Source: Hydrogenophaga sp.
Lineage (GTDB): Bacteria > Pseudomonadota > Gammaproteobacteria > Burkholderiales > Burkholderiaceae_C
Reading direction: 5' to 3'
Length of the DNA: 13,050 bases
Assembly: GCA_030684755.1 (NCBI GenBank)
Contig: JAUXXN010000280.1
Location: 1 to 13,050, forward strand
Shown piece after piece: positions 1 through 12,754 of this stretch (the stretch's first letter is position 1; each line of letters opens with the position of its first letter). Under the pieces are notes generated by a model. It was not told the DNA's origin. It did not search any database and saw nothing but the letters and a program-made list of their open reading frames with translations. The position numbers and the translations under genes were made by a program.

Positions 1-745
1 CAACAGGAATCAAGCCCCACCAAGGCCAAGGCAATGGTGGGGTTTCAATCAGCGAGTCACCTACCCGTAGGGTCCAAAACAGTTCGGCCAAGCCGACATA
101 CAGGTAAACGGGGTCGCGTCCCTGTGTTTGCCAAGTTGGGCTCGCGGTCGTTTGCGTAGCCCACAAAGTCATGGCCAGTATGCCGACCAGAAAGCTGAAA
201 GCCACAACAGCAACCGATCCGGTGACGCGCCAGAAGTGGTTCTTTTGATAAAGCGGATCGACCTTCGTTGGTGGTCCGAGCAGCACGGGCGACAGCCCAC
301 CCCGTCGGCCTATTTCGGCACGGATGCTAATGGTCAGCACGTTGTCACGGCGCAGCAGCTTAGGTGCCAAGGTCAGTAAGTGAGGAGCCTGGGCGTAATC
401 TCTGCCGTCAGGCCCAGCAAGCTGGCCTTTGCGTTGCAGCAAGGTTTGATTGAGGCTGATTTCGTAGGCGTTGCCGAGCCGTGGGAGGTACAGGCTCCAA
501 GGCTCTTCCGGCCGCTCTGGCAAGTGGAAGCGCAGGTCAAAGACGGCTTCCCCAGATTGGCCGGGGTGGTGTTTGTCCCAGTGATAAGGCAGGGACACCT
601 CGCGGGTGTGCGTTTGTTCTGCCAAGGTGACGGTCAATGTAGCCCTGTCGATAAGCAGCACGTTGGTGGGCAAGGTGGTCGAGTGGGCCGTCAGCGGCCA
701 AGCCCAGCAAAGCACAATCCAAAAGCGCACCCAGACGAAAAGCAC
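1..745 (-). CDS. 7TM sensor protein (probable histidine kinase), copy 1, N-terminal part, cut by window edge
   Basis: I translated this frame by hand from a GTG at 743-745. It stays open for 248 codons to the left edge, so the C-terminus, where a kinase module would be, lies outside the window. The protein starts with a hydrophobic signal segment, then a periplasmic beta-rich domain of about 150 residues (motif SLPYHWDKHHPGQSGE), then the first membrane helices. This order resembles 7TMR-DISM sensors that feed HisKA_3 kinases, which usually pair with NarL-type regulators; the kinase is inferred from that family and from the neighbour. The GTG follows the regulator's TAA directly (TAAGTG), with GGGGA about 7 bases upstream, so translation is probably coupled. 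It aligns without gaps to residues 1-248 of the copy at 5332-6645. Confidence 0.85.
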   Translation of the reverse strand, partial: MLFVWVRFWIVLCWAWPLTAHSTTLPTNVLLIDRATLTVTLAEQTHTREVSLPYHWDKHHPGQSGEAVFDLRFHLPERPEEPWSLYLPRLGNAYEISLNQTLLQRKGQLAGPDGRDYAQAPHLLTLAPKLLRRDNVLTISIRAEIGRRGGLSPVLLGPPTKVDPLYQKNHFWRVTGSVAVVAFSFLVGILAMTLWATQTTASPTWQTQGRDPVYLYVGLAELFWTLRVGDSLIETPPLPWPWWGLIPV

Positions 746-1429
746 TTAGCGATCCCCATGGTCAAAGTTCAGCAGGCCCATGCGGGATGCTTCAAAAACG
801 GCCTCGCTGCGGGAGTGAACAGAGAGCTTGCTGTACAGGTTTTTGATATGGGTCTGAACGGTATGCACGGTCACCCCTTGCAATCGGGCGATCTCTGCGT
901 AAGAAAATCCCCGGGCAATCAGCTCCAGAACCTCATGCTCTTTGGTTGTGAGCGCCAGCGGCTTGGGTGGGTGCGGGATAGCTCCGAGCGGCATGCGCGC
1001 TACCTGTGTGGCAAAGCGGGACAGCACCCGCCTGGCAATCAAGGGTGAGATGGGGGAGGCGCCCCGCTTCATTTCCAAAATGGTGGCAGATATGTCTTCC
1101 GGTGCTGCATCTTTGTGGATGTAGCCCAAGGCTCCAGCCTCAACACTGTTGAGCACATTTTCGTCGTCGCCGAACATGGAAATGACTAGGCACTCGCAGC
1201 CCTGCTGCGTCTGAGCTGCAAACCGGATCAGATCCAAACCGCTGCCATCGGGCAGTTCTAGGTCCACCAGCAGCACATCCAACCGCGCGGTAGGGTCAGA
1301 CATCAGCGTGCGTGCGCCAGCAACCGAGCCGGCTGTTCCGATCAGCGTGAGTTCGGGGCAGCGCTGGACACTGTCCGCGAAAAACGCGCACATCGCTGCG
1401 TCGTCTTCAATGATCAGCACGCGCCACAC
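746..1429 (-). CDS. NarL/FixJ-family response regulator, copy 1
   Basis: This is a 227-residue two-domain transcriptional regulator. Receiver: acidic pocket E8-D9-D10 (IIEDD), predicted phospho-acceptor D56 in LLVDLELPDGSG, S84 in VISM, and K106 in YIHKDAAP. After a linker comes a LuxR-type helix-turn-helix (about 160-220: KEHEVLELIARG, TVHTVQTHIKNLYSKL). The frame is open up to a GTG at 1531, but I prefer the GTG at 1427-1429. It has a strong ribosome site (GAGGGAG, 9-base spacing), gives the usual short N-terminus (xWRVLIIEDD), and is the only such start shared with copy 2. It is followed directly by the sensor gene and is presumably phosphorylated by it. It is about 88% identical to the regulator at 6646-7329 by eye, with every base of the DNA-binding region coding the same amino acids. 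It probably controls the divergent lipoprotein gene and/or itself (inference). Confidence 0.95.
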   Translation of the reverse strand: MWRVLIIEDDAAMCAFFADSVQRCPELTLIGTAGSVAGARTLMSDPTARLDVLLVDLELPDGSGLDLIRFAAQTQQGCECLVISMFGDDENVLNSVEAGALGYIHKDAAPEDISATILEMKRGASPISPLIARRVLSRFATQVARMPLGAIPHPPKPLALTTKEHEVLELIARGFSYAEIARLQGVTVHTVQTHIKNLYSKLSVHSRSEAVFEASRMGLLNFDHGDR

Positions 1430-1438
1430 GGTCGATGA

Positions 1439-1445
1439 CTCCCTC
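1439..1445 (-). promoter_or_regulatory. Shine-Dalgarno site deciding the regulator 1 start
   Basis: On the minus strand GAGGGAG lies 9 bases before the GTG at 1429. The upstream GTG at 1531 has no comparable site, so translation most likely begins at 1429. Confidence 0.6.
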
Positions 1446-1506
1446 AGTTGTTGCTCGGCAGGGGCTAAGGATACGGCCAAGTCTTGCGGCCAGCTGCCCT
1501 TGTCAG

Positions 1507-1522
1507 TCCCATGAATGTGGGA
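1507..1522. promoter_or_regulatory. Dyad TCCCATGAATGTGGGA, candidate operator
   Basis: Perfect 5-bp arms (TCCCA/TGGGA) around a 6-base spacer. The same 16 bases occur at 7407-7422, also between a regulator gene and a divergent lipoprotein gene. Its size and symmetry would suit a dimeric LuxR-type DNA-binding domain. Function is inferred only from position and conservation. Confidence 0.4.
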
Positions 1523-1548
1523 TGCGCTCACCCTAAGGCACCCCTACG

Positions 1549-3713: not shown

Positions 3714-5099
3714 TTAGCGGCTGCGCGATGCACCCAGCACGTGGTCGATGACGATGACCTCTTCGCGCTCCAAGCGCAAGGCCAGCCAGCGGGCCAGTGT
3801 GGTGCGTTCGCGGGCCGCCAGTGGGCGCTCAACCGTCACCACCACCAGGGCCGTGGTGGGTGCAGCGGTGGCCGCAGCGTCAGGCGGCGCAGCCACAGTA
3901 ACGGGTGCCAAAGGCTCAGCCAAGTAAGCCGCGCGCACCTGCGGCAGTTGCGCGCGAATCTCGCTTTCCAGCAAGTCGCGCGGCAACGGGGCGGGGGCTG
4001 GTGGCGCGTCCAAGCGCTTCAGGGTTTGTGCCAGTTGGGCTTCCAACTCGCGCACCTTGGCGTCGTTTTTTTGCACCTGGGAGATCAGCGTGCGTTGCAA
4101 TTCTTCGGTCAGGTCTTTGCGCAGAGCGCCCACGTCCAGGGACTCGTCGCCGGTGCGGCGCAACTGCACTTGCGCATCGGGCAGTCCGTTGCGGCGCAGG
4201 GCTGCCAGGGCCTGTTCTTGCAGTTGTTCTTGGTCACGGTCGCCCACGGTGGTCAGGCGGATCAACTGGGCTGTGGCGTCAATGTCGTACGACAGCACGC
4301 GCGGGTCGAGCAGCAGCTCGCTACCCGCGTTGCGGGCGGCGTTGTTGAACACCTCATGTTGCACAAATTTGTAGCCCAGCCAGATGCTGGGCACCAACAC
4401 CAGCGTCAGGCCCGCTGCGATGATGGCGCGGTGGCGCCGCCGCGTGGCCGCGTCCACCACACCGCGTGGCGGCAGGCGCAGCAGCTTGGCCACGGCCAGC
4501 GTGGACGCCGCAATGAACACGCTGTTGATGACATACAGATAAAAAGCACCAACGAAGAAGTCCCAGCGCCCGTTGGCAATGCCAAAGCCTGCCGTACACA
4601 GGGGCGGCATCAGGGCGGTGGCAATGGCCACGCCGGGCACGATGTTGTTGAAGCTGCGCCGCGTCACCGCCACCATGCCGGCCGCGCCGCCAAAGGCCGC
4701 GATCAACACGTCCCACAACGTGGGGCTGGTGCGGGCCAGCAGTTCGCTTTGCGGCTGGTCCAGCGGGCTCAGCGAGAAATAAAGGATCGACGTGATCAGG
4801 CTCAGCGCGGTGAAGATGCCCAGGTTCTTGGCCGCTTCACGGATGAGGGTGAAGTCGGCCACCGCAGCGGCATAGCCGATACCGACGATAGGGCCCATCA
4901 GCGGCGATATCAGCATGGCGCCGATGATCACCGCCGTGGAGTTGACGTTCAACCCCACCGACGCGATGAGGATGGCAAAGAACAGCACCCACAGGTTGGT
5001 GCCCACCACTTGGGCGCCACTGCGCAAGGCGCTGTCAATAACGTCAGCGTCTTGCTGGTCGCTGCGCAGATTGAAGAGGCGGTAAATGCGGGTGTTCAT
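3714..5099 (-). CDS. DUF389 (TIGR00341-type) integral membrane protein
   Basis: 461 residues from the ATG at 5097-5099. The family core is clear: an N-terminal stretch before the first helix, the conserved segment NSTAVIIGAMLISPLMGP (53-70), the second hallmark TALMPPLCTAGFG (161-173), and about six to seven membrane helices between residues 33 and 245. The C-terminal half is soluble, with a coiled-coil-like stretch (about 325-362), a Pro/Ala-rich linker, and a final VVVTVERPLAARER segment. Family function is not established; it is a conserved inner-membrane protein. Upstream codons extend the frame to a GTG at 5138, but the family-typical start is the ATG. No good ribosome site stands before either. 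It is convergent with lipoprotein gene 1. It may once have followed the permease gene whose tail lies just upstream (5218-5386). The opposite-strand open frame is a shadow. Confidence 0.93.
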   Translation of the reverse strand: MNTRIYRLFNLRSDQQDADVIDSALRSGAQVVGTNLWVLFFAILIASVGLNVNSTAVIIGAMLISPLMGPIVGIGYAAAVADFTLIREAAKNLGIFTALSLITSILYFSLSPLDQPQSELLARTSPTLWDVLIAAFGGAAGMVAVTRRSFNNIVPGVAIATALMPPLCTAGFGIANGRWDFFVGAFYLYVINSVFIAASTLAVAKLLRLPPRGVVDAATRRRHRAIIAAGLTLVLVPSIWLGYKFVQHEVFNNAARNAGSELLLDPRVLSYDIDATAQLIRLTTVGDRDQEQLQEQALAALRRNGLPDAQVQLRRTGDESLDVGALRKDLTEELQRTLISQVQKNDAKVRELEAQLAQTLKRLDAPPAPAPLPRDLLESEIRAQLPQVRAAYLAEPLAPVTVAAPPDAAATAAPTTALVVVTVERPLAARERTTLARWLALRLEREEVIVIDHVLGASRSR

Positions 5100-5217: not shown

Positions 5218-5386
5218 TTACCCCCCGCTGCGCAGCAGCAGCGCCGGGTTCAGCCGCATTTGCCCCAGCAGGTAGCGCGCACCCATACCCAGGCTCACGC
5301 CGCTGACCAGCAGCGCCGTGAGCAGGCCGCTTCAGTACAGGCCCACCGGGCTCATGTCCAGGCGCCACAGCAGCAGGCCGGTGGCC
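5218..5386 (-). pseudogene. 3'-end fragment of an FtsX-like permease gene (last ~55 codons)
   Basis: Bases 5222-5386 match 9485-9649, the end of the intact permease gene, with three mismatches (5243, 5245, 5332). The frame is kept down to LLRSGG and a stop at the same place (TAA here, TGA there). The change at 5332 turns a Trp codon (TGG) into TGA, so the fragment is closed internally. It has no start of its own and is fused to the truncated sensor on its upstream side. The TGA/TAA difference suggests the fragment may come from a slightly diverged copy rather than from a simple very recent duplication. Confidence 0.9.
5222..5386. repeat. 165-bp direct repeat, left copy
   Basis: Pairs with 9485-9649 in the same orientation at an offset of 4263, with three mismatches in 165 bases (98%). 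The offset is a multiple of three. The two copies bracket cassette 2. Identity breaks sharply at 5387 (sensor coding DNA on this side, permease on the other) and at 5221. Confidence 0.95.
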
Positions 5387-6645
5387 TGCGTGGTCTGGTA
5401 AGTGGCGCTCAACTCGGCTTCCTTTTCGGCGATGCGCGTCTGCAACGTATGCATCAGCTCCCGGGCCTGCATTGAGGCGGTTCGAAAGCGAACTATCACG
5501 ATCCAAGCCAGTGCCATGCCAAACAGCAGAGCTGAATAGCGCATCAATGAGTTCTCTCCGTACGTGGGGTTGATCCGGAATATATACAGGTCGCGCATAC
5601 CCACCGCCACGTTGATCAAAATGGTAATGGCTACCAGGCGCTGCGGCCATGCCACGTCGGCCTTGATGCCTTGCCAGAGGTACACGCCGCCAAAGCCAAG
5701 AAATGTGACCCCCATGGCGGCGTACCAGAGTGTCAGTGCCACGGGCACGCCCCAGTTCAGGGCCATCAGCGCGGCCAATGGGCTGGCGCCCATCAACACC
5801 GCCAGCCAGACTTTGAACGCGTGTGCCCGTATGGACGTGCGCCAAGCAGCTACCTCCATACAGAACAGCGCCATGGCGTACCCCCAGGCACCCAGTACCA
5901 CCACAGGAACCAGTCCCCACCAGGGCCAGGAAAGCGGTGGCGTTTCAATGAGTGAGTCGCCGACCCGCAGGGTCCAGAACAGCTCGGCCAAGCCCGCGTA
6001 CAGGTAGATGGGATCGCGTCCCTGTGCCGGCCAGGGGTGGCCGGTGGTGGTTTGTGTGGCCCACAAGGCCAAGGCCAGCATGCCCACCAGAAAGCTAAAA
6101 GCTACGACCGCAATCGAGCCAGTGACACGCCAGAAGTGGTTTTGTTGGTACAGCGGTTCGACGCTGGTGGGTGGTCCGAGCAGCACTGGCGACAGTCCTC
6201 CCCGGCGGCCCATTTCGGCACGAATACGAATGGTCAGTACGTTTTCGTTGCCCAGTAGGTCAGGTGCCAGCGTCAGGTAGCGAGGCACCTGGGCGTAATC
6301 GCTCCCGTTGGACTCGGTGAGATGGCCCTTGCGTTGCAATACGGTTTGATTGAGGCTGACCTCATAGGCATTGCCCAGTCGCGGAAGGTACAGGCTCCAA
6401 GGCTTTTCCGGGCGTTCTGGCAAGTTGAACCGCAGATCAAAGGTGCCTTCCCCTGATTGTCCAGGGTGGTGCTTGTCCCAGTGATAAGGCAGGGACACAT
6501 CTCGGGTGTGTGTTTGCTCTGCCAAGGTGACGGTCAATGTGGCCCTGTCGATAAGCAACACGTCGGTGGGCAAGGTGGTCGAGTGGGCCGTCACCGCCCA
6601 GGCCAGGCATAGCACCATGGAAAAGCGCATCCAGACGAAAAACAC
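5332..6645 (-). CDS. 7TM sensor protein, copy 2: kinase domain lost, fused to a permease tail
   Basis: 437 residues from the GTG at 6643-6645, which abuts the regulator stop (TGAGTG, with GGGGGA 6 bases upstream). Signal segment about 1-22; periplasmic domain about 23-170 (SLPYHWDKHHPGQSGE, LYLPRLGNAYEVSLN); about seven helices between 174 and 386; then a coiled-coil linker (RELMHTLQTRIAEKEAELSA, about 395-414). In the HisKA_3 kinases it resembles, this linker leads into the dimerisation/phospho-acceptor helix and ATPase domain. Here it stops at Gln420 and continues as ATGLLLWRLDMSPVGLY, the permease sequence, ending at a TGA where the permease has Trp. There is no phospho-acceptor His and no ATP-binding motif, so it cannot act as a kinase itself. 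It may still bind ligand or form dimers with copy 1 (inference), or be a decaying pseudogene. Confidence 0.88.
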   Translation of the reverse strand: MFFVWMRFSMVLCLAWAVTAHSTTLPTDVLLIDRATLTVTLAEQTHTRDVSLPYHWDKHHPGQSGEGTFDLRFNLPERPEKPWSLYLPRLGNAYEVSLNQTVLQRKGHLTESNGSDYAQVPRYLTLAPDLLGNENVLTIRIRAEMGRRGGLSPVLLGPPTSVEPLYQQNHFWRVTGSIAVVAFSFLVGMLALALWATQTTTGHPWPAQGRDPIYLYAGLAELFWTLRVGDSLIETPPLSWPWWGLVPVVVLGAWGYAMALFCMEVAAWRTSIRAHAFKVWLAVLMGASPLAALMALNWGVPVALTLWYAAMGVTFLGFGGVYLWQGIKADVAWPQRLVAITILINVAVGMRDLYIFRINPTYGENSLMRYSALLFGMALAWIVIVRFRTASMQARELMHTLQTRIAEKEAELSATYQTTQATGLLLWRLDMSPVGLY

Positions 6646-7329
6646 TCATCGTCCCCCGTGATCGAAGCTCAGCAGGCCCATACGGGATGCCTCAAAAACA
6701 GCCTCGCTGCGGGAGTGAACGGACAGCTTGCTATACAGATTCTTGATATGGGTCTGAACTGTATGCACGGTTACGCCTTGCAATCGGGCTATCTCTGCAT
6801 AAGAAAAGCCCCGTGCAATCAGCTCCAGGACCTCATGCTCTTTGGGTGTGAGCGACAGCGGTTCGGGGTCGGGGTGGATAGCCTCGACCGGCATGCGCGC
6901 CACCTGCGTGGAGAAGCGGGCCAGCACACGCCGGGCAATCAAGGGAGAAATGGGCGAGGCACCCCGTTTCATTTCGACAATGGTGGCAGATATGTCGTCC
7001 GGTGCCGCATCTTTGTGGATGTAGCCCAGGGCGCCAGCCTCAATGCTGTTGAGCACATTTTCATCGTCGCCAAACATGGAAATCACCAGGCACTCGCAGC
7101 CCGGTTGCGTCTGACAAGCCAAGCGGATCAGATCCAGGCCGCTCCCATCGGGCAGCCCCAGGTCAACCAGCAGCACATCCAGTCGCGCGTCTGGGTCCGA
7201 CATCTGAGCGCGCGCGTCAGCTACCGAGCCGGCGGTTCCGATCAGCATGAGTTCGGGGCAGCGCTGAACACTGGCCGCGAAAAACGCACGCATCGCCGCG
7301 TCGTCTTCAATGATGAGCACACGCCACAC
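6646..7329 (-). CDS. NarL/FixJ-family response regulator, copy 2
   Basis: 227 residues from the GTG at 7327-7329 (GAGGGAG 9 bases upstream). The receiver is complete: E8-D9-D10, phospho-acceptor D56 in LLVDLGLPDGSG, S84 and K106. The LuxR-type helix-turn-helix (about 160-220) is identical to that of copy 1 from Lys163 to Leu220, although the DNA carries synonymous differences, so purifying selection kept it. Differences concentrate in the receiver (for example C14R, D19A, E58G) and the inter-domain linker (148-159). No ATG/GTG corresponds to the GTG at 1531 of copy 1, which supports the internal start. Its gene partner is the kinase-less sensor, so phosphorylation would have to come from sensor 1, another kinase or a small phospho-donor (inference). 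It probably acts on the shared dyad at 7407-7422 and the divergent lipoprotein gene. Confidence 0.95.
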   Translation of the reverse strand: MWRVLIIEDDAAMRAFFAASVQRCPELMLIGTAGSVADARAQMSDPDARLDVLLVDLGLPDGSGLDLIRLACQTQPGCECLVISMFGDDENVLNSIEAGALGYIHKDAAPDDISATIVEMKRGASPISPLIARRVLARFSTQVARMPVEAIHPDPEPLSLTPKEHEVLELIARGFSYAEIARLQGVTVHTVQTHIKNLYSKLSVHSRSEAVFEASRMGLLSFDHGGR

Positions 7330-7511
7330 GGTCGATGACTCCCTCAGTTGTTGCTCGGCAGGGGCTAAGGATACGGCCAAGTCTTGCGGCCAGCTGCCCT
7401 TGTCAGTCCCATGAATGTGGGAGGCGGTCGCTTGAAGGCCTGCATACGATCGTCAAGGCTGCGGTTGCCACGGTGGTGTCGCTTGCCAAGCTCACATTCA
7501 AGGATGGATTC
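7330..7511. promoter_or_regulatory. Divergent intergenic region of cassette 2 with conserved dyad
   Basis: 182 bp between the regulator 2 start and lipoprotein gene 2. The regulator-proximal half (to 7422) is identical to 1430-1522 and ends with the dyad TCCCATGAATGTGGGA at 7407-7422. The other half (7423-7511) is unrelated to the region before lipoprotein gene 1 and holds the AAGGA ribosome site (7500-7504). I see no convincing -35/-10 pair for either gene. Confidence 0.45.
7339..7345 (-). promoter_or_regulatory. Shine-Dalgarno site deciding the regulator 2 start
   Basis: GAGGGAG on the minus strand, 9 bases before the GTG at 7329, identical in sequence and spacing to copy 1. It outweighs the more upstream TTG at 7380. 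Confidence 0.6.
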
Positions 7512-9374
7512 ATGATCAAGACCCAGACAACTTTTGCCCGCTCTCGCATCTGGTGCGCCGCAGTTCTGTGTGCCGCCGGCGTTGGGTTGGCTGCCTGTGG
7601 CGGCGGCAGTAGCAGCAGCGATGGCGGTAGTGGTGGTGTCGGTGGCGGAGACACTGTGCCCGAGGCGCCAGCGCCCCTCGCTTCCGAATTTGTGGGGGTG
7701 GCAGCAGCAGGTCTTCCCCTGGTCGGTACCGTCACGGTGAAAGATGCCAATGGCGTCACACGCACGGAACGCATCGGTTCCAACGGCAGCTACAGCATCA
7801 ATGTAGAAGGCATGACGGGCCCTTATATCTTCCGTGCCATGGGGTTGGCGGGTGGACGCTCTTACGTCATCCACTCCACCGCTACGCAGGCCGATGTGGG
7901 GGGCGTCATCAACGTCACGCCACTGACCGATCTGGTGCTTTCCAACCTGGCCGGCGAAATTGCGCAACGGTATTTCGACCGCTGCAATGCGCTGGTCACA
8001 TGCGACCGCTCGGACGCCTTGACGGCATCGGCGCTGCAGGCCGAAGTGGTTCAGTTGCGCGAGCGTTTGCTGCCGGTGCTGCAGGCCCTGGGTGTCGAGG
8101 CTGGTATCGATTTGTTGCGCACCCCATTTACCCCCCTCGCCAGCGCACTGGACACAGCGCTCGACGTGCTGCGAGTGGACTACGACGAAGCAGGCGCGGT
8201 GGCCACCATCACCAACATCGTGACCCAACAATTTATCTCTGACGACCTGACGGTGACAGCCACCGCAGTGGCGCCAGAGAGCGGTGCGTTGGACGCAGGA
8301 GCTGTTGCCAGTTCGGGTGATGACATTGGCGCTATCCGCACCCTGCTCACGCAGCTCTCGGACCAGTTCGGCGGCGGCAGTGCCACAGCAGTGCAGGGTC
8401 TGTTGTCCAGCAATTTCTTGTTCAGTGATGAAGATGAAGACTCTTTCTCAAACATCATCGCCGGTGCCGATGCGGGTATCCGGCTCACCGATGTGGTGAT
8501 TGATCGTATTGACTATAGTGTCACGCCTCCTATAGCGGTTGGGAGTTGGGTTTCGCGGTCCGAGGGCGGCAATTTCCTGAGGCGGCTGGACGGTGCGCAG
8601 TTCGTCAAAGAGGCGGATGTCTGGAAATTCCACGGCGACCAGCGCGTGCTGGATATTGAGGCCTCTGCACTCATGGTGCGCACCTCCTTCGGTAGCAACG
8701 GCAACGTGTGCACCGCGACCGGGCTGATCCTGATGGTCGATGACGTGGACCCCTCCAACAATTCGGGGCTTGAACACATCATTGTCACCGGCCCAGGTTT
8801 GCCCACGGATGGCGTTCGGCTGAACCCATCCGAGCTTGGCGGCTCCTGGGGCATCGCGGATTCGATCACCAGCGACCAAACAGAGGGCTCAGATTTCTAC
8901 GCATTGGAAGACAGTTGTTCAGAGTCTGCAGGCGGCAGTACCCTCACCGCGATTCCCCGCAACGCGGCATACACCTTCACCGGCTATCAGAGCGGCGGCG
9001 AACCGGCTGGCATCAGCTACACCTGGCGTGTGGCCGAGCGCCCGTTGTCGCTGGCAGAGCTGTCGGGCGTGACGCAAGGCTTCCCCAGCGTGACACCCGA
9101 CTACGCCGCCTTCAGCAACTACAGCGGCGGCGCTCTGCAGGTGGCGGCCTCTGGGCTGGACGTGAGTGGTTCTGCAAGCATCGAACTGGTCGCGGAGGGC
9201 ATGGACGGCGCCGAATCCCAGGAGGTTGACTTGGAAAACCTGATTCCGACGCAACAAGGCACGCTGAGTCAAATCTTGACAGTCAACGCTGGCAGCTTCA
9301 GCAGCGGTTCGCTGAAGGTAGAAAGCCTGCAGCCCAATGGCCGCAGCTTCATGGTTCAGTACTGGCGTTATTGA
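7512..9374 (+). CDS. Secreted lipoprotein with Gly/Ser linker, hypothetical
   Basis: 620 residues from ATG 7512 (AAGGA 7 bases upstream). The open frame reaches further upstream, but only this start gives a signal peptide. A canonical lipobox GLAAC (lipidated Cys29) is followed by a flexible Gly/Ser-rich linker (30-47). Residues about 58-115 look like a carboxypeptidase-regulatory-like beta-sandwich (LPLVGTVTVKDANG, SNGSYSINVEG). The segment GVINVTPLTDLVLSNLAG (131-148) is a motif I associate with betaproteobacterial lipoproteins of this build. The middle is helical, the C-terminus beta-rich (YTFTGYQSGGEPAGISYTWR), ending MVQYWRY. No catalytic motif is recognised. It is likely an outer-membrane-anchored envelope or surface protein. 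It takes the same position relative to regulator 2 as the gene at 1851-3578 does to regulator 1, but the two proteins are not visibly homologous. Confidence 0.85.
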   Translation: MIKTQTTFARSRIWCAAVLCAAGVGLAACGGGSSSSDGGSGGVGGGDTVPEAPAPLASEFVGVAAAGLPLVGTVTVKDANGVTRTERIGSNGSYSINVEGMTGPYIFRAMGLAGGRSYVIHSTATQADVGGVINVTPLTDLVLSNLAGEIAQRYFDRCNALVTCDRSDALTASALQAEVVQLRERLLPVLQALGVEAGIDLLRTPFTPLASALDTALDVLRVDYDEAGAVATITNIVTQQFISDDLTVTATAVAPESGALDAGAVASSGDDIGAIRTLLTQLSDQFGGGSATAVQGLLSSNFLFSDEDEDSFSNIIAGADAGIRLTDVVIDRIDYSVTPPIAVGSWVSRSEGGNFLRRLDGAQFVKEADVWKFHGDQRVLDIEASALMVRTSFGSNGNVCTATGLILMVDDVDPSNNSGLEHIIVTGPGLPTDGVRLNPSELGGSWGIADSITSDQTEGSDFYALEDSCSESAGGSTLTAIPRNAAYTFTGYQSGGEPAGISYTWRVAERPLSLAELSGVTQGFPSVTPDYAAFSNYSGGALQVAASGLDVSGSASIELVAEGMDGAESQEVDLENLIPTQQGTLSQILTVNAGSFSSGSLKVESLQPNGRSFMVQYWRY

Positions 9375-9480
9375 TCTGAAAACAGGAGGCACTTGGCCAG
9401 GAGCGCTCACCGGCGCTTGGCGGGTGTGCTCTGCGTCGCTTAGGCAGCACCGCAGGTGTCACCCAGACGGCGCTCAAGTT
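9375..9480. other. Convergent intergenic region with possible hairpin
   Basis: 106 bp between the stops of lipoprotein gene 2 and the permease gene. AGCGC-TCACCG-GCGCT, extendable by CCA/TGG around a bulge (about 9399-9422), can fold into a hairpin that could slow transcription from either side, but no T tract follows. It is not a convincing Rho-independent terminator. Confidence 0.3.
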
Positions 9481-11980
9481 TCAGCCCCCGCTGCGCAGCA
9501 GCAGCACGGGGTTCAGCCGCATTTGCCCCAGCAGGTAGCGCGCACCCATACCCAGGCTCACGCCGCTGACCAGCAGCGCCGTGAGCAGGCCGCTCCAGTA
9601 CAGGCCCACCGGGCTCATGTCCAGGCGCCACAGCAGCAGGCCGGTGGCCAGCGCGCTGCCGGTCAGCAGGGCAAAGGCGGAGGTGACGGCGGCGAGCACC
9701 CCGTATTCCCACACCAGCACGCGGCGCAGCAGCGAATGGCGCGCGCCCAGTGCGTGCATCACCGTGGCGTCGAACAGTTGGCGGCTGCGGCTGGCCGCCA
9801 CCACGCTGGCCAGCACCAGCAGGCTGGCCGCCAGGCACACGCCCGCCACCACCGCCAGGCCGCTGCTGGCGCGGCCCATGAGGGCGCGGGTTTCGCGCAG
9901 CAGCGACTCGGTGCGCACGGTGGCGATGTTGGGTGCTACGGCGGCGATGCGGTCCTGGGCGTCCAGCGTCTGTTCCACCGGCAGCCAGGCCGCGCCCACG
10001 TGGCGGGTGATGAAGGGTTCCAGCGCGCCGTCGCTGAAAATCGCTTCCAGCCACAGGCGCGACTGCATGCGCCGCTGGCTGTAAATGGCGGCCAGCGTGG
10101 CCTCCACCGGCGTGCCCATGATCTCGAAGCGCAGCCGGTCGCCCACCTTCAGGCCCAGTTGGTCGGCCTCGCGGTCTTCCATGGCCACCAGCGGTTCGCC
10201 GTTGTGGTCTGGGGGCCACCAAGCGCCCCGGTCGATCACCACGTCGTCGAAGTTGCCCGAGCGGTTGCTCAGCTTGTGTTCGTCGCGGGCTTCGCGGGCG
10301 CGCTCGCCGTCGGCACTTTCGCGCAGGGTTTCGCCGTTCACCGCCGACAGCCGCCCCAGCACCAGCGGGGCGGTGCGCAGTTCAGCGCCTGCGCTGGCGC
10401 TGTGCAAGGTGTCGCGCAGCAGCGGAATTTGCTCGGTTTGCACGTCGTAAAACACCAGAGCCGGGGCGTTGGTGGGCACGGTGTCGTTCACGGTGCGCAG
10501 CAGCGTCATCACCACCAGCGTGCATGCCACCAGCAGGGTGAGGGCCGAGCCCAGCGAGAGCAGGGCGGTGCGCAGCGGCGAATGCGCTTGCTGCAAACCG
10601 GCCAACGCCAGTTGCAGCGGCAAGGGCAGGCGCGGGTGGTGTTGCAGCCGGGCGGCCAGGTGGCGCAGGCCGCGCGTGGCCAGGTCCAGCACGCCCAGCA
10701 GCGCGGCGGTGGCCAGCACAAAGGCCAGGCCAAAGCGCGGGTCGGGCAACACCGCCACCAGCAGCGCCAGCGTGGCGCTGGCCACGGCGGCGGTGAGCCA
10801 CCAGGCGCGGCGCGGCGTGTGCAGCGCCTGCCCTTCCACACCCCGAAACAAGGTGGCCGGGCTGACCGACAGCGCGCGGCCCAGCGCGGGCAACGAAAAC
10901 GCCAGCGCGGTGAGCACGCCAAACAGCAGCGCCACCCCAGCGGGTTGCCACAGGCCTTGCAGCAGCAGCGTGACCGGCAGTTTGTCGGCGGCCAGTTGGG
11001 CGCCCGCCAGCGCCAAGCCCATGCCCAGCGCCACGCCCACCGCGCTGGCCAGCAGCGCCAGCATCAAAATTTGCAGCAGCACCATGGCGGCCAAGCGCCC
11101 GTCGCGCAAACCCAGCGCGCGCAGCGTGGCCAGGCTGGTGAGCTTGCCTTGCAGGTAGGCCTGCACGCTGTTGAACACACCCAGGCCGCCAATGAACAGG
11201 GCAGAAAAGCCGATCAGCATGAGGCCCGAAGCGACTTGACCCAGCACCTCGGCCATGCGATCGCTGCGCTCGTCGAAGCTGCGCACCTCGGCGTCCAGCG
11301 TGGGAAAGGCGGCCATGAAGCGGTCGCGCCAGGCGGTGGCGGCCTGGGCGCTGGGCGGGTTCACGCGAACGCGGTAGCGGTATTCCACCCGGCTGAGCGG
11401 CTGCACCAGGCCGGTGGCCATGAGCGCGCCCTCGGCCACCAGCACCGGGGCGGCGCCCCAGTCGGCGCGCAGACTGCGGTCGGGCTGGCGCACCGTGATG
11501 GCGCGCACCACCAGTTCCAGCTCGCCAATGGCGATGCGGCTGCCGGGCTGCAGGCCGAAGCGGGTGGCCAAAGCGGCGTCAATGGCGGCGCCCCACTGGC
11601 CGTCGCGCTGGGCCAGCGTGTCAGCGAGCGGCGCGGCCGGGTTCAGTTCCACCTGGCCCACCAGCGGGTAGGCCGCGTCGGCGCTCAGCAGCTCGATCAG
11701 CTGGGCACGGCCGTCTTCGGTGCGCAGCATGGTGCGCAGCTCGATCACGCGCGACACCGTGGCGCGCGCCTGCATCCAGGCCAGCGTGTCGTTCGGCAGG
11801 GGTTGGGGCGATTCAATTTCCACATCGCCACCAAAGATCAGCCGGGCGTCGGTGCGCATGGCGTCGGCCACTTGGCGGTACAGACCGCCACCCGCAGCCA
11901 CCAGCGACACGCCCAGCACCAGGCAGGCCACAAAAATCCACAGGCGCCGACCACTCGCGCGCAGGTCGCGCCAGGCCAGG

Positions 11981-11997
<17 letters not shown>
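9481..11997 (-). CDS. FtsX-like ABC transporter permease (YbbP type)
   Basis: 838 residues from the ATG at 11995-11997, chosen because GGAG lies 7 bases upstream and the N-terminus MLFLLDLAWRDLRASGRRLW is typical; the frame runs further upstream without support. One helix (about 20-40), a large periplasmic domain (about 41-250), then four helices of the first FtsX module (about 252-375), extra helices (about 398-440 and one before the second soluble domain), a second periplasmic domain, and three C-terminal helices ending LLLRSGG. This two-module, about ten-helix build with length near 800 matches YbbP rather than the shorter LolC/LolE or MacB permeases. The substrate is unknown; YbbAP-like systems are thought to use ATP hydrolysis to move or extract hydrophobic or envelope molecules. 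It overlaps the ATPase gene by 17 bp. Its last 55 codons exist again at 5222-5386. Confidence 0.93.
9485..9649. repeat. 165-bp direct repeat, right copy (within the permease gene)
   Basis: Intact counterpart of 5222-5386. It encodes the last membrane helix region of the permease. It uses TGG at 9595-9597, where the left copy has TGA. Confidence 0.95.

Positions 11998-12754
<757 letters not shown>

Follow-up and report, generated by a model that had tools for sequence, protein, structure and literature searches.

Sensor copy 2, the second of two closely similar sensor genes in a contig of Hydrogenophaga sp., lacks a kinase part and runs in frame into the 3' end of an ABC permease gene. It is probably a sensor histidine kinase gene that was broken recently and has been left behind as a relic of ordinary recombination by homology-anchored insertion. 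The window, that is the whole stretch of DNA which was analysed (13,050 nucleotides), is the entire contig C205; the MAG to which it belongs has 689 contigs and is 82.6% complete and 3.2% contaminated. In the order of the plus strand it starts with the N-terminal 248 amino acids of sensor copy 1 (2..745, minus strand), the rest of which, with the kinase, lies on contig C132 (L005:2330-3451), followed by response regulator 1 (RR1; 746..1531, minus) and by L1 (1851..3578, plus), a large protein named by eye as secreted and lipoprotein-like, which is divergent from RR1. Next come a DUF389 membrane protein (3714..5096, minus; PF04087), a duplicate of the permease 3' end termed T' (5218..5386, minus), sensor copy 2 without kinase (5387..6645, minus; delimited by open reading frame and structure model), response regulator 2 (RR2; 6646..7380, minus) directly upstream of it, and L2 (7512..9374, plus), again secreted and lipoprotein-like by eye and divergent from RR2. 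The window closes with the intact FtsX-type ABC permease gene (9481..12081, minus; PF02687), the 3' end of which, T (9481..9648, minus), is the partner of T', and with the adjoining ABC transporter ATPase gene (11981..12754, minus; PF00005).

The domain search found Response_reg and GerE/LuxR domains in both response regulators, which are 89% identical over 244 amino acids. An alignment of the two cassettes, computed before removal of a 4-nt contig overlap described below, has 82% identity over 2,176 nt and extends from the junction at 5383 to 7552. L1 and L2 gave no significant similarity to each other in a protein comparison, while the response regulators from which they diverge are much alike; either protein may be a target or a partner of the sensors. 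In relatives' loci a response regulator gene adjoins the sensor in all six, and an L2-like gene divergent from the pair occurs in two (G011 and G086; 26% identity over 266 and 288 amino acids). No match to L1 was found at the cut-off in any of the six.

The reading frame of sensor copy 2 (6645 to 5332, minus strand) encodes 437 amino acids, with a GTG start and a TGA stop at 5332-5334. It consists of 420 sensor codons, after which the permease 3' end is entered at base 5386, a base common to sensor and permease sequence, in the same codon phase (GCC ACC GGC...). The permease sequence measures 168 nt from its first codon here, GCC, to the permease stop; the chimeric frame closes after 17 permease codons, at the TGA which stands where the permease has TGG. 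An earlier note on this DNA had placed the switch at 5386/5387, in frame and with TGA for TGG, and this was confirmed from the open reading frame and from the repeat alignment, in which bases 5222-5390 are 98% identical to 9485-9653 within the permease 3' end. A match of 169 nt at this identity is far beyond chance, while an in-frame fusion by itself is expected by chance one time in three. The 168-nt direct repeats T and T' bracket positions 5387-9480, so that the segment between them has the form of an insert flanked by a target repeat. At the join (5382..5386, minus strand) sensor and permease probably share the 5-nt microhomology GGCCA. The sensor side is partly inferred from the protein P0001, which has Ala and then Met (ATG) at this place, and GGCCA is shared only if native sensor 2 reads GCC ATG there.

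The two tails differ in four codons, 18 (TGG in T, TGA in T'), 47 (CCC/CCG), 48 (GTG/GCG), and 55 (GGC/GGG), and in the stop codon (TGA/TAA), which makes five different bases in total: one nonsense, two synonymous, one Val/Ala, and one stop codon change. The longest exact run is 86 nt, the first two differences being 87 nt apart. Beyond the TGA that ends the sensor frame, the permease frame of T' continues to its own in-frame TAA (5218-5220), unlike the intact permease, which ends in TGA. As read from the sequence, T' is thus a permease 3' end that is genuine and complete; its single nonsense codon is of a kind that a piece of a pseudogene may contain. At the Val/Ala site all 28 other genomes aligned at the permease end have Ala, and T' therefore keeps the older state. 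These features bear on the reading that a broken sensor 2 was patched with filler DNA for which the permease tail, at a distance of 4.3 kb, was the template, no cassette having come in from outside. Such a patch would fit the identity of the two tails (98%) and the probable short microhomology at one end. A random patch, however, is unlikely to finish exactly at the permease's last codon with an alternative in-frame stop, and T', having the Ala of the other genomes where T has Val, is not an unchanged copy of today's T; filler DNA is accordingly an improbable origin.

In the preferred reading, homology-anchored insertion, a fragment from a close relative consisting of truncated sensor 2, RR2, L2, and a permease end would have been taken up into the permease locus, its permease end recombining with the homologous sequence there. 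The other end, in the sensor gene, would have been joined illegitimately to the permease at a point 168 nt ahead of the stop, aided by a microhomology of about 5 nt. This may have occurred by direct joining, i.e. homology-facilitated illegitimate recombination, or the fragment may first have been circularised and then integrated by a single crossover. Either route would restore the permease, leave cassette 2 without the 3' end of its sensor gene, and displace a permease tail of 168 nt. The 437 amino acid product would then most likely be an unselected by-product unable to phosphorylate RR2, and RR2 may be silent or may be served by sensor copy 1, whose own response regulator it closely resembles. 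Several points count against insertion, among them the single witness of the join, the want of a clean empty site, the unmatched flanks of the tails, and the partly inferred microhomology, all described elsewhere in this text. Cassette 2 (sensor, RR, and L2) has a GC content of 60-61% as against 71% for the permease, but DUF389 (65%) and the flank on C132 (64-65%) are not far from it. Besides, the classical one-sided outcome includes deletion and not duplication (PMC3240628).

Another origin of the join would be a misassembly or read chimera, in which two haplotypes, one with an intact sensor 2 beside the permease and one with DUF389 directly after the permease, were falsely joined at 5386. 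Among 67 genomes of the genus the 30-nt junction occurs in one, that of the MAG, and the viral contigs scanned did not have it; no second assembly with the join was thus found. This single witness, the fragmentation of the MAG into 689 contigs, and its contamination of 3.2% all favour an artefact, as do the resemblance of T' to a real permease end from a near-identical haplotype and the existence elsewhere of a kinase-bearing version of the sensor (P0001). A join by k-mers in an assembler needs more than about 5 shared nucleotides unless there is a chimeric read, and the approximately 5 nt apparently shared here, a partly inferred number, are too few for it. A nonsense codon would also be odd in the permease of a working haplotype. 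Ordinary reads could bridge the longest exact run of T and T', 86 nt, if such reads were used (the read type is not known), and by reasoning either resolution of the T/T' repeat retains the join between sensor and permease. On this balance an assembly artefact is unlikely, though it is the chief rival of insertion. The probabilities given to insertion, misassembly, and filler DNA sum to one; whether the product is under selection is a separate question which overlaps all three.

The age of the truncation was estimated from synonymous divergence. T and T' have a dS of 0.042 (54 codons), compared with 0.191 between the permease and that of G074 (865 codons), the genome with the closest full-length permease gene among those searched, and with 0.765 between sensors 1 and 2 (419 codons). 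As the first value is far below both others, the truncation seems recent, long after the split of the two sensors and after the split from G074. This holds only if T and T' have not been kept similar by gene conversion, by which an older event could be made to look young. The earlier note had named a decaying relic among its readings; a relic is the better of the readings it offered, with the amendment that the tail copies make the truncation look recent. A single tandem duplication yielding the second sensor and the permease tail together was rejected, the dS of 0.77 between the sensors standing against 0.04 between the tails, barring tails homogenised by gene conversion. As a separate observation, synonymous divergence between the cassettes (2-1531 plus L005:2330-3451 versus 5387-7380) is uneven, with 0.46 for the response regulators, 0.47 for the ectodomain, 0.97 for the membrane part, and 1.47 for the linker, for which gene conversion over the response regulator and the ectodomain may be responsible.

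The permease is present near full-length at an identity of at least 70% in 26 other genomes of the genus, and the closest full-length gene among the genomes searched is that of G074 (94%). In G074 the permease is linked to a DUF389 gene, 92% identical to that of the window, in the same order and orientation, and neither cassette occurs in the gene block compared. G074 has a single permease tail, and two other genes lie between permease and DUF389, so that it does not offer a clean empty site. By eye these two genes (L056:7240-10779) are glycosyltransferase-like and UbiA-like, and in the own, incomplete genome this stretch has no more than two matches, 32 and 67 nt long. An equal spacing of DUF389 and permease had suggested that the same chimera is present in G074; this was ruled out since the gap is filled by the other genes. 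The 3' flanks of T and T' showed no match to each other or to G074 beyond shuffled controls, and the assignment of the native flank consequently rests on the one Val/Ala site and on synteny.

Relatives that bear a kinase show what sensor 2 has lost. Sensor copy 1 begins at 745 and leaves the contig; C132 and C205 overlap by 4 nt inside this gene, and the merged frame has 620 amino acids and no internal stop. The protein P0003 spans the break between the contigs exactly and lies wholly in the merged frame. It comes from a contig of 56,656 bp, while the break itself is bridged by the 4-nt overlap only. P0001, of 611 amino acids and from a metagenome contig of 2,410 bp, is 94% identical to sensor 2 over 412 residues and then continues into a kinase; HATPase_c is present in both P0001 and P0003. 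A protein search with sensor 2 yielded 271 matches, in clusters at 90% identity, the best 120 of which were used. The kinase is kept in 119 of these 120, and they contain no kinase-less class. HisKA_3 together with HATPase_c was found at E<=1 in all 59 listed homologues of alignment A2, the 60th member of which is the window protein with neither domain, and in 60 of the 61 members of alignment A4, where the exception, judged by length, is presumably P0078. All of the 120 matches listed have at least 596 amino acids except P0078 (453 amino acids). This only other short homologue among them has, by eye, a frameshift-like tail just after the linker, which may reflect kinase loss there too or a sequence error. 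The 437 amino acid fusion is absent as a representative among the matches listed; a second copy could hide inside the 90% cluster of P0001.

Genomes of the family matched at E<=1e-120 in 22 of 399 cases including the own genome, and the matches of the 21 others reach residues 596-608 of the 611 of P0001. Among genomes with readable DNA, no match that passed the cut-offs exceeded 55% protein identity to sensor 2 outside the own genome; this covers 67 genomes of the genus (E<=1e-60) and 399 of the family (E<=1e-120, with scoring of three candidates in each), the own genome being counted in both numbers. A scan of genome contigs gave one relative at 48%.

A structure model of truncated sensor 2 has a mean pLDDT of 89 and contains a helix (2-20), strands (30-157), and seven helices (159-421). 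The N-terminal helix is probably a signal peptide, as read from the model. The ectodomain (about 30-157) is modelled as a periplasmic beta-sandwich or jelly-roll sensor domain and is followed by seven predicted transmembrane helices, both as expected of a 7TMR-DISM protein. The seventh helix is long in the model and runs into the coiled-coil linker, which is itself a confidently predicted helix; the chimeric tail is predicted to be disordered, with mean pLDDT values of 56 and 41 in the last two blocks. The top match in Foldseek was human WLS with an E value of 2e-6, but with a TM score of 0.31 and an rmsd of 15 it is weak as a match of the whole chain. Most of the 50 best rows were GH2 beta-glucuronidase or galactosidase chains, over about 150-200 columns with a TM score (query) of 0.22-0.25, which we take to be expected of a receptor with a galactose-binding-like ectodomain. 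Pfam 7TMR-DISM_7TM (PF07695) was recognised at E<=1 in 22 of 60 members of A2 and in 19 of 61 members of A4, the window protein remaining unmatched. Neither HisKA_3 nor HATPase domains were found in the window protein in the Pfam domain search. It is a truncated derivative of a HisKA_3-type sensor histidine kinase and not itself a histidine kinase, and the anatomy given in the earlier note, a complete 7TM sensor with linker, without catalytic module, and fused in frame to a permease tail, was right.

Whatever its origin, a kinase-less sensor might now be selected as an inhibitor, as a ligand sink, or as a partner of sensor 1. For this the open frame and the conservation of its first 420 codons can be put forward. 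The earlier note had proposed a dN/dS comparison of residues 1-420 with copy 1, and this did give a low value, 0.147, but such a ratio mostly reflects the time before the truncation. By parts it is 0.229 for the ectodomain, 0.116 for the membrane part, and 0.091 for the linker, with 0.129 for RR1 and RR2. From P0001 the protein differs by 26 amino acids with no significant excess on the truncated branch, the changes on the truncated and the P0001 branch being 12:7, 10:5, and 6:7 with three outgroups, none of them significant in a test of little power. Residues 67, 239, and 355, however, differ from P0001; at these positions 97%, 63%, and 87% of 119 homologues agree with P0001. The neutral probability of finding no stop in the sensor frame is 0.73, 0.39, or 0.21 if one, three, or five of the tail differences postdate the event, as calculated from substitutions per 168 nt only, with an assumed transition bias and frameshifts left out. 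So young a gene could thus be open without selection, and the open frame is weak evidence of function here. The earlier note was correct that an open and conserved frame argues against old decay; it proves little beyond this, the tail copies themselves indicating a recent event.

A selected function would gain from the high identity of RR1 and RR2, from the predicted helix of the linker, which could pair with sensor 1, and from the title of PMC5992135, which speaks of several modes of sensor kinase interaction. Against it stand the retention of the kinase in all but one of the 120 homologues listed and a well-studied case of inhibition (PMC4866733): there one sensor kinase, RetS, blocks another, GacS, as a heterodimer formed through its H1 domain, whereas truncated sensor 2 has no H1/DHp domain. 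Present selection on the kinase-less product is very unlikely, and nothing was found in support of the suggestion in the earlier note that it acts as a dominant-negative or ligand-sink partner of the intact sensor. In its most specific form, a newborn decoy receptor, the kinase-less 7TM protein would pair with sensor 1 through membrane part and linker, sequester the same ligand, and retune RR1 and RR2; the chance of this is slighter still.

If real, the locus offers a clear footprint of a single insertion which restored one gene while truncating another; next to the intact paralogue it also offers a receptor that is naturally without a kinase. Two lessons may be drawn from it: where a gene was broken only lately, an open frame says little about function, and a gene fusion known from one assembly needs read support. 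No publication describing a receptor that lacks a kinase and arose by fusion with the tail of a transporter came up in the literature searches, although one may still exist.

Three other known systems resemble parts of what is described here. In Pseudomonas aeruginosa PA14 the 7TMR-DISMED2 sensor kinase LadS is naturally out of frame from codon 380 due to a 49-nt duplication, and the authors consider it not functional and the event likely relatively recent (PMC3245244). Like sensor 2, LadS is cut after an intact sensing domain, with an aberrant tail and the rest conserved. It differs in that its frame is shifted and that it is a hybrid kinase, whereas the 3' part of sensor 2, which is of the HisKA_3 type, has been replaced in frame by the end of another gene.

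For the recombination itself an experimental test in E. coli is instructive, in which 56 of 60 clones were explained by a single crossing-over of circular molecules, in the 14 clones sequenced 109-950 bp of the homologous locus were duplicated, and in one-sided integration most illegitimate joins had 3-10 bp of microhomology (PMC3240628). These events share with the reading preferred for the window an insertion anchored by homology and a duplicated homologous locus. They were, however, laboratory events with a marker, and in one-sided events of the classical type recipient DNA is as a rule lost as well. In natural genomes, the T6SS clusters and rhs loci of Vibrio cholerae contain older 3' gene ends displaced downstream by an incoming module, for which homology-facilitated illegitimate recombination was proposed with a "perhaps" (PMC5361080). 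A 3' gene end pushed downstream and the mechanism proposed for it are common to both cases; in V. cholerae the effector changes and the immunity genes are retained, whereas in the window the permease appears to be restored and the incoming cassette itself to have been cut.
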